NCBI GenBank assembly: GCA_002151545.1
Contig: CP021237.1
Location: forward strand, 6,076,001-6,140,000
DNA from: Sphingobacteriaceae bacterium GW460-11-11-14-LB5
GTDB taxonomy: Bacteria; Bacteroidota; Bacteroidia; Sphingobacteriales; Sphingobacteriaceae
DNA: 64,000 nucleotides
Direction of reading: 5' to 3'
Each line of letters begins with the position of its first letter. Position 1 is the first letter of the stretch. The notes below the pieces were generated by a model. That model saw nothing but the letters and a program-made list of their open reading frames with translations, did no database searches and was not told the DNA's origin. The position numbers and the translations under genes were made by a program. Shown here piece after piece: positions 3,613 through 54,675 of the stretch.

Positions 3613-3782
3613 TTTCTTTACTTGCAGTTAAGGCCTAATTTAGCCCCGATTGAAACGGCATCCTTGTAGCGCAGCGGAAAGGATATAGTGGAAAGCGGGG
3701 ACAAGCATTAAATAAAAGCACTGTTTTTGCGCTCCAAAAATTATTACCACAAATAAAACTATACATTTTACGTTTAAAATTC

Positions 3783-38268: not shown

Positions 38269-38530
38269 ATGCGGCACCGAATGTTGGTTTAAATGTAAAA
38301 TTTGAAATTAAATAAAGCTAATATTTTTGAGGAATTAATTATCGTGCGGAAAGGTTTTGTCCGCAATACCCTTCGTAATTAAACCTGATAGCGCCAAATA
38401 GCCCACAGCCCGAAGCATGAGGGCGAGGACTATGGACAATAGCAGGACGAAAGATGATCAGGATTACGGCTATTGCTTTTCAAATGCTGAATAATACGAC
38501 TACACATTACCTTTTTATGGGAAATTAGCT

Positions 38531-44091: not shown

Positions 44092-44114
44092 TTGGTTGGT
44101 GTCTCACCAACCAA
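44092..44114. other. Perfect 10-bp hairpin after the bactofilin gene
   Basis: TTGGTTGGTG and CACCAACCAA with a three-base loop. There is no U-run on either strand, so a terminator role is uncertain; it may stabilise the mRNA end. Confidence 0.55.
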
Positions 44115-44144: not shown

Positions 44145-44573
44145 TTAGCCGCTAATATAGCTTTCCAGCTGCGAAATGGTCTGTTTCTGATCAGCAATGA
44201 TAAACTTCACCACATCCCCGATGGAAACCATTCCTTTTACTTCGTTATTTTCTACAACAGGTAAATGACGGATGTGTTTATCGGTCATCAGCTCCATGCA
44301 ATAATCAATACTGTCGCTTAAATTAATGGTGATCGGGCTGGCCGTCATGGCTTCTTTAATCAGGGTATCTTTTGATGATTTACCCTGAAGAATAATCTTC
44401 CGGGCGTAATCGCGTTCCGTAAAAATGCCATGCAGCCGGTCGTTTTCCATGACCAATACCGCGCTGATGTTCTTTTCTGTCATTACTTTTAAGGCATCTA
44501 AAACAGAAATATTTTCTGATACCGAGATAATTCGTACCTGTTTGGTATCTAACAAGTGTTTTACGCTTTTCAT
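44145..44573 (-). CDS. CBS-domain protein
   Basis: 142 residues made of two CBS motifs, residues about 8-65 (VSENISVLDALKVMTEKNISAVLVME...GIFTERDYARKI) and about 75-135 (TINLSDSIDYCMELMTDKHIRHLPVVE...GMVSIGDVVKFI). Such pairs bind adenosine nucleotides such as AMP, ATP or SAM and act as energy sensors. No fused effector domain. Single gene, convergent with the bactofilin operon. Confidence 0.92.
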   Translation of the reverse strand: MKSVKHLLDTKQVRIISVSENISVLDALKVMTEKNISAVLVMENDRLHGIFTERDYARKIILQGKSSKDTLIKEAMTASPITINLSDSIDYCMELMTDKHIRHLPVVENNEVKGMVSIGDVVKFIIADQKQTISQLESYISG

Positions 44574-44618
44574 AACTGTTAATTTGATTATAACAATTTA
44601 AGAAATAATTAGCTGGAT

Positions 44619-44791
44619 ATCAAAGTTTTATTTTAGGTTGATCTCTGCTTTACAAACGGAGCACAGTTTTATGTAACCTAAACCTGAAAAGAACGTCAGC
44701 CTCCGTCCCGATTTTACATCGGGATTCTATCGGAGCTATAGTGTATGGCAGAACCAAGCCAAACCTAAGCACTGCTGGTTTTGCTTTTCAA
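44619..44791 (+). ncRNA. Structured direct repeat, copy 1 (candidate RNA)
   Basis: 173 bp, close copy of 45399-45555. Helices: outer TTTAGGTT/AACCTAAA, inner TGCTT/GAGCA, CTCCG/CGGAG with an extra nested hairpin TCCCGAT/ATCGGGA, and AAGCA/TGCTT followed by TT. The CTGAC/GTCAG helix of copy 2 is weakened here. Type and strand are inferred from pairing, not known. Confidence 0.5.
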
Positions 44792-44823
44792 TTACATTTT
44801 ATCCAACTAATAATAAATATTTA

Positions 44824-45273
44824 TCAATCTTTAAGTGGTTTTGCATCTATAGTGGTCTGCAGAGAACCGTTGGACGAATTCTTGGCTGAAGCTAGAAGTC
44901 CTGTTGTAATTTTACCAACTGAGAAAGATCTCCTGATAACACAATTAAATCTGAATCTTGAAGCTACAAAATTAGAGGTCCAAGTAAGGTTTAAATCTTT
45001 GACAGGCCCATTTTTGTCGAAATCTAATTGTTCCCCAGCACCAAGATTGCTACCAGAAATTTTCTCAGTTTGAGTTGATCCATCTGGTTTGGTAAAACTT
45101 ATTTCAGCTTCGAAATTTTCAGGCAGTGATGTTGGTTGTACCCAGTTGTTTTGTCCATCAAGGTACCCAACTTGAACTTCGTAAGCTATAGTTACATAAC
45201 TTGATTCATACGGATATTTTTTGCAGCCGAAGAGAGAAACTGCAATTAAGAGGGTCGTTACTGTTTTTTTCAC
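44824..45273 (-). CDS. Hypothetical lipoprotein
   Basis: 149 residues from GTG 45273; the TTG two codons upstream falls inside a TAATTTTG -7 box. Lipobox IAVSLFGC, so lipid-anchored. The rest is strand-rich (SYVTIAYEVQVGYLDGQN, FEAEISFTKPDGSTQTEKIS, DLNLTWTSNFVASRFRFNCVI) with the look of a small beta-sandwich. No family recognised. It is enclosed by two direct copies of a structured repeat (44619-44791 and 45399-45555). Confidence 0.6.
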   Translation of the reverse strand: MKKTVTTLLIAVSLFGCKKYPYESSYVTIAYEVQVGYLDGQNNWVQPTSLPENFEAEISFTKPDGSTQTEKISGSNLGAGEQLDFDKNGPVKDLNLTWTSNFVASRFRFNCVIRRSFSVGKITTGLLASAKNSSNGSLQTTIDAKPLKD

Positions 45274-45398
45274 GGCCAAAATTAGTCATAAATTACTGGC
45301 TAATTCAAAGCCGACTTAGGAATTCATTACCGATTCTTCCGATACTTGGTTTGTTGTATTTTCTTTTTAAATTTACCTTTTGTCTTAATGGCCTGTAA

Positions 45399-45555
45399 AT
45401 CAAAGTTTTATTTTAGGTTGATCTCTGCTCTACAAACGGAGCACAGTTTTATGTAACCTAAACCTGACAAGAACGTCAGCCTCCGATTCCTCATCGGAGC
45501 TATAGTGTATGGCAGGGCAGAACCTGACCTAAGTACTGCTGGTTTTGCTTTTCAA
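45399..45555 (+). ncRNA. Structured direct repeat, copy 2 (candidate RNA)
   Basis: 157 bp. Helices: outer TTTAGGTT/AACCTAAA, inner TGCTC/GAGCA, CTGAC/GTCAG, CTCCGAT/ATCGGAG, and AAGTA/TGCTT followed by TT. It lies 160 bp before ahcY, but the ahcY promoter is downstream of it, so it is not an ahcY leader. Confidence 0.5.
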
Positions 45556-45659
45556 ATTATGGGCTATCTCTTCAGGTGTATTCCGGCTTGGCCATAAGAT
45601 TTTTGAATATAATCGTAAATAGATTTTACAATCCGTAAACCACCTTGTGCTTTTAATTA

Positions 45660-45691
45660 TTTGGCTTTCACAAAGGGATGTGGTAACTTTG
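45660..45691 (+). promoter_or_regulatory. Bacteroidota promoter of ahcY
   Basis: TTTG at 45660-45663, a 20-bp gap, and TAACTTTG at 45684-45691, 24 bp before the ATG. Confidence 0.7.
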
Positions 45692-45715: not shown

Positions 45716-47032
45716 ATGTCATCAGTAGAGACAACTTATATCCCTTACAAAGTTAAGGACATTTCACTGGCAGAATGGGGCCGTAAAGAAATCGGATTAG
45801 CCGAAGCAGAAATGCCAGGTTTAATGAGTTTACGTAAAGAATTCGGTCCAACACAACCGTTAAAAGGTGCGCGTATTGCAGGTTGTCTGCACATGACCAT
45901 CCAAACGGCTGTATTAATCGAAACATTAACTGCACTGGGTGCTGAAGTTACCTGGTCATCTTGCAATATTTTTTCTACTCAGGATCATGCTGCTGCTGCA
46001 ATTGCTGCTGCTGGTATTCAGGTTTATGCCTGGAAAGGTTTAAATGAAGAAGAATTCGACTGGTGTATTGAGCAAACTTTACACTTCGGTCCGGAGCAAC
46101 AACCATTAAACATGATTTTGGATGATGGTGGCGATTTAACCAACATGGTTTTTGATAAATATCCTGAGCTAATTGCAGCCATTAAAGGTTTATCAGAAGA
46201 AACCACTACTGGTGTTCACCGTTTGTACGAAAGAATGAAAAACGGAACATTGCACTTACCTGCAATTAACGTGAACGATTCGGTAACCAAATCTAAATTT
46301 GATAACAAATACGGATGTCGTGAGTCATTGGTTGATGCGATCCGTCGTGCAACTGATGTAATGATGGCTGGTAAAGTGGCTGTGGTTTGCGGTTATGGCG
46401 ATGTGGGTAAAGGTTCTGCAGAATCATTAAGCTCACAAGGTGTACGTGTTATTGTAACTGAAATTGATCCAATCTGTGCTTTACAGGCTGCAATGGAAGG
46501 TTATGAAGTGAAAAAATTAGCTACTGCAATTAAAGAAGCAGATATTGTGGTAACCACGACTGGTAACTGTGATATCGTTCGCGAACAACACTTCAGGGCA
46601 TTAAAAGATAAAGCGATTGTTTGTAACATCGGTCACTTCGATAACGAAATCGATATGGCTTGGTTAAACGGTGCTTATGGCGATACTAAAGTAGAAATTA
46701 AACCTCAGGTTGATAAATATACCATTGATGGTAAAGATGTGATCATCTTAGCTGAAGGTCGTTTGGTTAACTTAGGTTGCGCAACTGGTCACCCAAGTTT
46801 TGTAATGAGTAACTCATTCACCAACCAAACTTTGGCTCAGTTAGAGCTTTGGACCAACACTGCTGCTTACGAAAACAAGGTTTATACTTTGCCTAAGCAT
46901 TTAGATGAAAAAGTTGCCCGTTTACACTTAGAAAAAATCGGTGTAGAACTAGATGTTTTGGATCAACACCAGGCTGATTATATCGGTGTACCGGTAGAAG
47001 GTCCGTTCAAAGCAGATACTTACAGGTATTAG
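45716..47032 (+). CDS. ahcY: Adenosylhomocysteinase
   Basis: 438 residues. Splits S-adenosylhomocysteine to adenosine and homocysteine, relieving inhibition of methyltransferases. NAD-binding motif [16 protein letters not shown]; substrate-side motifs [38 protein letters not shown] and [22 protein letters not shown]-terminal KADTYRY is the usual end. Length typical for the bacterial enzyme. Own promoter and terminator; a heptad-periodic stretch follows the stop directly. Confidence 0.98.
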
Positions 47033-47107: not shown

Positions 47108-47308
47108 ATTTCCTCCGGTTTATCGGAGGGTGTCCTTAGTTGTTTTTTTGAAAACGTAAGTTCAGTGCTCTTCGGAGCTTTCAGCCCTGCTGTTCATTCC
47201 AATCTTTTTGTTGTCATCCTAAGCATGGTCGAAGGCACAACAAAAAGTATATCCATTTCTATCAGGTTTATTTTACAGCAGATTGTGGTTCTTTTGCTGC
47301 TTAAAACT

Positions 47309-54456: not shown

Positions 54457-54675
54457 GTTGAAAGACTAAAGGTAAGCGTATACCTAATTGCGCCTACAAC
54501 CTAAGTTTCTTGTAGTACCCGACATTTTTAAACCCGATAGCAGCGAAAATCCTTTTTGTTTGCAGCAACTCAATATGACAGAGATTAACAAAAAGATTGT
54601 AGCGGATAGCGGGAACAAACTTAAATTTTAGTACAGCCACTGCTTTCTAAATAATTACGCCTTAAATAAAAACGA

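Follow-up and report, generated by a model that had tools for sequence, protein, structure and literature searches.

Two copies of a folded repeat lie in the same direction in a 64,000-nt stretch of a Sphingobacteriaceae genome (the window), flanked by a minus-strand gene for a CBS-domain protein and by ahcY, which is encoded on the plus strand. They are separated by an ORF which, judged from its N-terminus, we take to be lipoprotein-like. In the original prediction the copies had been suggested to be paralogous small RNAs of an unrecognised class, selected for folding as plus-strand RNA. This raises the question of what kind of element they are, and whether the molecule that folds is RNA at all. 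The features of the window are collected in Table 1.

Table 1. Features of the repeat pair, its surroundings and further copies, in window positions. A1, alignment of sequences from the CBS-ahcY site; R1, model built from A1.
Feature	Positions	Strand	Basis
Repeat copy 1 (173 nt)	44619..44791	+	Sequence comparison
Repeat copy 2 (157 nt)	45399..45555	+	Sequence comparison
Flavo-1 element A, core and tail	44677..44792	+	R1 85.4 bits, E 1e-17; among the 24 sequences from which R1 was built
Flavo-1 element B, core and tail	45457..45556	+	R1 109.5 bits, E 1.6e-23; among the 24 sequences from which R1 was built
Core of element A	44683..44752	+	Columns 7-77 of A1; nested short helices with 3x3 internal loops between them
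Core of element B	45463..45516	+	Columns 7-77 of A1
Nested hairpin in the apical loop of element A	44707..44723	+	8/24 rows of A1
3' tail of element A	44753..44791	+	Ends TTTTCAA; conserved sequence, no supported helix
3' tail of element B	45517..45555	+	As for the tail of element A
CBS-domain protein gene	44145..44573	-	PF00571, E 1.3e-25; oriented away from element A
Lipoprotein-like ORF between the copies	44824..45279	-	No Pfam match
ahcY, S-adenosylhomocysteine hydrolase gene	45716..47032	+	PF05221, E 1.4e-136; PF00670
ATCAAAGTTTTATTTT block, probably belonging to the divergent promoter of the CBS gene	44619..44634	-	Kept in element-less relatives L134 and L135
Duplicate of the ATCAAAGTTTTATTTT block in copy 2	45399..45414	-	Sequence comparison
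ahcY promoter-like block (putative promoter)	45660..45691	+	Conserved; between element B and ahcY
Further Flavo-1 copy	3639..3738	+	R1
Further Flavo-1 copy	38378..38484	+	R1, E 1.1e-6; not reported by Rfam
Further Flavo-1 copy	47147..47272	-	R1
Further Flavo-1 copy	54527..54651	+	R1

The repeat pair between the CBS-domain gene and ahcY

The two copies lie 780 nt apart and match each other at 84% over 156 nt (E 6e-49), which is not a chance resemblance. Both folded copies and every sequence change that had been quoted for them were verified. GAGCA is faced by TGCTT in copy 1 (helix at 44646-44663) and by TGCTC in copy 2 (45426-45443), and TGCTT is faced by AAGCA in copy 1 (helix at 44767-44786) and by AAGTA in copy 2 (45531-45550). 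The nested hairpin CCCGAT...ATCGGG is present in copy 1 and missing from copy 2. It had been described as gained by copy 1; the direction of this change cannot be polarised, as the hairpin occurs in 8 of the 24 rows of an alignment of the CBS-ahcY site (A1; 24 of the 25 extracted site sequences, L048a being omitted and L049 and L048b also absent).

On the plus strand, copy 1 together with its flanks folds better than all of 200 shuffled sequences (z -3.10). The minus strand folds nearly as well (z -2.47; 3 of 200 shuffles as good), and therefore the folding energy does not select a strand. The best structure of copy 1 differs from the conserved fold under both DNA and RNA energies. For copy 2 the conserved core is part of the optimal plus-strand structure under DNA energies and is absent from the one under RNA energies.

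The surroundings of the pair indicate how it may have arisen. The first 16 nt of the repeat are kept next to the CBS gene even in two relatives that have no element (L134, L135). Because copy 2 also contains this block, which is normally found beside the CBS gene, the simplest reading is that the pair is a segmental duplication rather than the result of two independent insertions. The duplicated stretch would have comprised the element together with flanking sequence of the CBS gene, with the lipoprotein-like gene lying between the copies. The same arrangement of two elements and the lipoprotein-like ORF was found in the relatives L048 and L124, and L047 and L055 have the ORF with one element.

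In relatives of the A1 type the start of the element keeps a constant distance to the CBS gene. The element sits between two divergent promoter-like blocks. The CBS-ahcY gap is shorter than 450 nt in 19 genomes, and the element is present in 16 of them and absent from three (L134, L135 and L150). This persistence at orthologous sites suggests that the element is under constraint and not decaying. A palindrome, GGTTGGTGTCTCACCAACC, lies at 44094-44112 of the window, after a bactofilin-like ORF, and similar palindromes adjoin several copies of the element elsewhere, e.g., at L004.

Flavo-1 membership, fold and extent of the unit

The larger part of each window copy is a divergent element of Flavo-1 (Rfam RF01705), and thus the class is a recognised one. 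The Rfam model itself gave no match at 44600-45600 even at E 10. The middle of the repeat has six further matches in the genome (80-82%, about 45-65 nt long), and three of these copies reach the Rfam cut-off of 42 bits: L003 and L006 score 48.8 and 47.5 bits and match some 60 nt of the window repeat at 80-82%, and L008 scores 42.1 bits and matches 47 nt at 81%. The L008 copy (1499-1597) lies directly before a cobalamin riboswitch (1672-1863).

The model R1, which was built solely from the 24 sequences of A1, retrieved 120 full-length matches in 82 loci of the own genome, about 77 of which had been chosen because the Flavo-1 of Rfam occurs there. A scan of the whole genome (a single contig of 6.18 Mb) yielded at least 133 matches, with 150 of 2736 candidates scored, and the R1 scans combined gave at least 210 distinct matches. 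Seven matches down to E 0.47 lie in the window, and six of them are convincing. As close copies of the window repeat reach the Rfam cut-off and R1 retrieves Flavo-1 copies, both window copies belong to Flavo-1. They share its core fold and its conserved positions; by fold they are ordinary members, and they are new only in having been missed by Rfam.

The original prediction of a conserved fold with compensatory changes was borne out by three alignments. On A1, RNAalifold found the Flavo-1 core unaided, with 13 pairs, six of which have double changes. For the full 16-pair core of A1, 92.9% of 382 cells are paired and 8 of the 16 pairs have double changes; the covariation score was reached by none of 500 shuffles, and the number of pair types was not above that of shuffles (401 of 500). 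Besides A1, three alignments were used, all of them fitted to the structure. In one of them, A3, which comprises 113 distinct own-genome rows taken from the 120 R1 matches, 95.0% of 1571 cells are paired, 15 of the 16 pairs have double changes, and 465 cells are double-changed compared with 141.5 in shuffles. The alignment of orthologous sites (A4) gave 94.4% of 1131 cells paired and 291 double-changed cells.

The helices that had been quoted as evidence fared differently. The TGCTC/GAGCA helix, which is not part of the Flavo-1 core, is paired at 74.0% in 11 sequences and shows no double change. For the 5' helices of these 11 sequences together (A2), pairing was 83.0% compared with 82.2% in shuffles, and again no double change was counted by the tool; one outer pair is G-U in five rows, G-C in four and A-U in two, so that the outer helix may still be genuine. 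The terminal AAGCA/TGCTT helix is paired at 82.4%, a value equalled or exceeded by 413 of 500 shuffles, and has no double change either. In 17 of 23 rows the very pair that bears the C/T change fails to form.

All 120 R1 matches span the model positions 1-102, and therefore the 3' tail is part of the unit. The model of Rfam ends without this tail, whereas the unit described here extends to the tail-end consensus YTTTYCAAA. The consensus of the 5' foot is TAAACC (83 anchored copies). A hairpin in the tail was considered in two registers on A1 (57.3% and 65.7% paired, neither value clearly exceeding that of shuffles), and its halves were re-paired across 66 own-genome tails (z -1.11 to 0.11); 77 of 91 tails had been found by pattern, 74 were distinct and in the length range, and 66 were left after removal of near-duplicates. 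The tail hairpin was rejected as a general feature, and individual copies can form one. In five orthologues of the element at 3639 (L191-L194 and L200) the left arm of the core carries an extra CCGATnnnATCGG hairpin. Together with the apical loop of copy 1, this makes it seem that small palindromes repeatedly enter the Flavo-1 hairpin.

Dispersal, neighbours and chemistry of the pairs

Flavo-1 is dispersed over both strands of the genome. The R1 matches comprise 107 on the plus and 103 on the minus strand, and the Rfam Flavo-1 matches show no replication-strand bias (45 plus, 46 minus). For 13 of 91 matches there is an overlap with an ORF of at least 90 amino acids. Neighbouring matches at a distance of up to 250 nt form 54 pairs, compared with 1.8 expected, and comprise 23 head-to-head, 13 tail-to-tail and 18 tandem pairs; a deeper search around known copies inflates the share of matches that lie in arrays (92 of 210). 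Such inverted and tandem arrays set the copies here apart from the Flavo-1 of RF01705. One array of seven R1 matches, at L037 979-2090 (467.3-468.4 kb of the genome), has the strand order - + - + - + -, with gaps of 76-84 nt head-to-head and 30-31 nt tail-to-tail. The copy number varies among 17 congeners, in which 87 candidates per genome were scored with the Rfam model: five of them have 0, 0, 1, 1 and 8 copies, and the others from at least 23 to at least 64.

The explanation that we favour, with a probability of roughly 0.6, is that Flavo-1 in this genome is a BIME-like DNA repeat, scattered between genes and closer in behaviour to a selfish element than to an RNA gene, with a unit that folds as single-stranded DNA. 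Each unit would measure at least roughly 100 nt and consist of a core folding on a single strand and a tail that ends in the consensus given above. Short Watson-Crick helices with 3x3 internal loops between them would form the core, topped by an apical hairpin of free length. The fold would most likely be formed by single-stranded DNA, e.g., during replication, and a trans-acting enzyme would read it and copy or recombine units into intergenic sites and into inverted and tandem arrays.

The strand that folds was approached via the non-canonical pairs. If the plus strand acts as RNA, G-U pairs are expected to be common and A-C mismatches to be rare. G-U was found in 18 of 1487 cells (1.2%) in the own genome, with 8 A-C, and in 29 of 1058 cells (2.7%) in relatives, with 11 A-C. 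The SRP RNA of the same bacterial family (23 distinct rows from 30 fetched) has 67 G-U in 781 cells (8.6%) and no A-C. At Watson-Crick columns the ratios of G-U to A-C are 18:8, 29:11 and 20:0, respectively, and both Flavo-1 sets differ from the SRP RNA (Fisher tests, p 0.006 for the own genome and 0.011 for relatives). A second control, the TPP riboswitch, has 10.0% G-U and a ratio of 1:1 at Watson-Crick columns, where it is too conserved to judge by. Pooled, Flavo-1 has 47 G-U compared with 19 A-C (p 0.0008), and the site at 3639 alone has 9 compared with 1. One ambiguous pair was excluded from this test, and with it the ratios of G-U to A-C are 18:29 in the own genome and 30:31 in relatives. 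When DNA energies are used, the conserved pairs are likelier on the plus strand for 90 of 113 own-genome rows and for 50 of 73 rows of the second set; the corresponding numbers under RNA energies are 63 and 43. The plus-strand preference that had been predicted is thus present, though weak, for the core as a whole. Because G-T is the milder mismatch in single-stranded DNA, single-stranded DNA fits this weak preference as well as RNA does.

These results bear directly on the view that Flavo-1, including the window copies, is a trans-acting structured RNA with its own promoter, as is implied by the Rfam type "sRNA". This would agree with the strong covariation, the persistence at orthologous sites and the slight G-U excess on the plus strand, and in Table 1 of Weinberg et al. 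2010 Flavo-1 is rated "y", i.e., probably RNA (PMC2864571). An RNA role is nevertheless doubtful because there are about 200 strand-neutral copies, many of them in arrays, because the copy number falls to 0 to 2 in some congeners, because G-U pairs are few, and because the transcripts of F. psychrophilum are not consistent with it. In that transcript mapping, which concerns another genus, Flavo-1 hits lie on either strand and many are outside of transcripts (PMC9723704). By eye, no promoter was recognised before the core. A trans-acting RNA is hence an unlikely explanation, and the folding molecule is probably DNA. For the window pair itself, the apparent segmental origin of copy 2 and the large number of strand-neutral copies argue against paralogous small RNA genes.

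A somewhat less probable alternative is that the element acts within the transcripts of neighbouring genes, at mRNA ends, by attenuation or as an ahcY leader. With simple ORF calling, the upstream gene is in sense orientation for 53 of 85 copies (32 antisense; p 0.03), a mild bias, and one copy is located upstream of ahcY; moreover, some 5' transcribed regions of F. psychrophilum coincide with Flavo-1 (PMC9723704). However, a conserved promoter-like block lies 55-56 nt before ahcY, downstream of element B, at a distance that is fixed in relatives. The same ORF calling gave 47 sense and 43 antisense genes downstream of the element, and of the 84 copies that have both neighbours, 10 are enclosed by divergent genes. 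The neighbours also have no common function. In a scan of 129 of 151 neighbouring proteins, the best 25 of 234 families were listed, none with more than five members; those matched by at least two proteins were transporters, helicases, aminotransferases and the like, and neither a transposase nor a special gene was among them. As for the Flavo-1 of RF01705, there is thus no fixed gene association among the 129 neighbouring proteins scanned.

By eye, the element at 3639 is absent from four orthologues (L214, L215, L223 and L225), and neither a clean empty site nor a fresh insertion was seen there. As tree neighbours seem to retain remnants, loss is as likely as insertion at this site. In L217-L221, orthologous to window 3631-3748, another hairpin, GTTGACAACTT...AAGTTGTCAAC, takes the place of Flavo-1. 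It is least probable that the element is a decayed, inert repeat whose covariation merely records a few ancient subfamilies: the subfamilies do differ in Watson-Crick helices, the ratio of one-sided to double changes is low and the element at 3639 was lost or replaced in some relatives, but 94-95% of the cells still pair, also at orthologous sites, and near-identical tandem units suggest recent copying.

Implications and comparison with known systems

No function has been assigned to Flavo-1 after 16 years. It was classified as probably RNA and not cis-regulatory (Weinberg et al. 2010; PMC2864571) and counted among the abundant sRNA families (PMC9029176), and a literature search largely outside of subscription journals found no paper that calls it a DNA repeat. 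The finding in the window is of interest because the whole Flavo-1 family has the appearance of a DNA element. Should Flavo-1 prove to be a DNA repeat, lists of abundant sRNAs and the annotation of Bacteroidota RNA-seq data will have to be corrected, and a mobile hairpin system and its enzyme are still to be discovered. The comparison of G-U and A-C at covarying pairs with RNAs of the same clade would be a cheap check for DNA hairpins labelled as structured RNA.

Several observations speak against the DNA reading: neither a transposase nor a clean fresh insertion was found, the element persists at orthologous sites, pooled G-U outnumbers A-C, upstream genes show the mild sense bias, the best structure of copy 1 is not the conserved fold, and all alignments other than A1 were fitted to the structure. 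Mobilisation by RAYT or IS200 transposases was considered and rejected for the own genome, since none of its four Y1_Tnp matches has an adjoining Flavo-1; R1 found nothing in L122 and L123 and one copy in L121, at a distance of 2.8 kb. The RAYT-like genes (L122 2459-3401 and L123 3986-4839) are each flanked by an inverted palindrome of the CACGCGTGC type, a separate REP-like family. By their YLHDNP motif the two RAYT-like proteins resemble TnpA-REP subclass 2.6, for which "atypical secondary structures" are reported in Bacteroidetes (PMC6006769), and the Y1 transposase at L121 3460-3899, with the motif YIKNQEIHH, is like TnpA subclass 1.2. A further-reaching proposal, to which we assign somewhat less than even odds, is that Flavo-1 represents a new type of DNA repeat instead of an RNA family. 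Its BIME-like unit would fold as single-stranded DNA, keep mismatched internal loops and have a 3' tail on one side only, and its spread would depend on an enzyme distinct from the RAYTs found in this genome.

Among known systems, REP/BIME elements with their TnpA-REP (RAYT) proteins share with Flavo-1 the high copy number, the location between genes, the imperfect hairpins and the occurrence in inverted pairs and arrays (PMC3733652, PMC6006769). In contrast, the Flavo-1 unit is larger, it has the foot consensus TAAACC and no GT[AG]G at the foot of the hairpin, and palindromes of another kind flank the RAYT-like genes of this genome, with no Flavo-1 nearby. Integron attC sites, like Flavo-1, keep their structure under sequence change, conserve unpaired positions and have a terminal hairpin of free length, and they fold as single-stranded DNA, as Flavo-1 probably does; they differ in that no integron core site is seen in the Flavo-1 tail. 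MITEs and RUP- and BOX-like repeats are likewise short, dispersed and non-coding, whereas a single Flavo-1 unit has no terminal inverted repeat, and inverted ends occur only in paired units with variable spacing.
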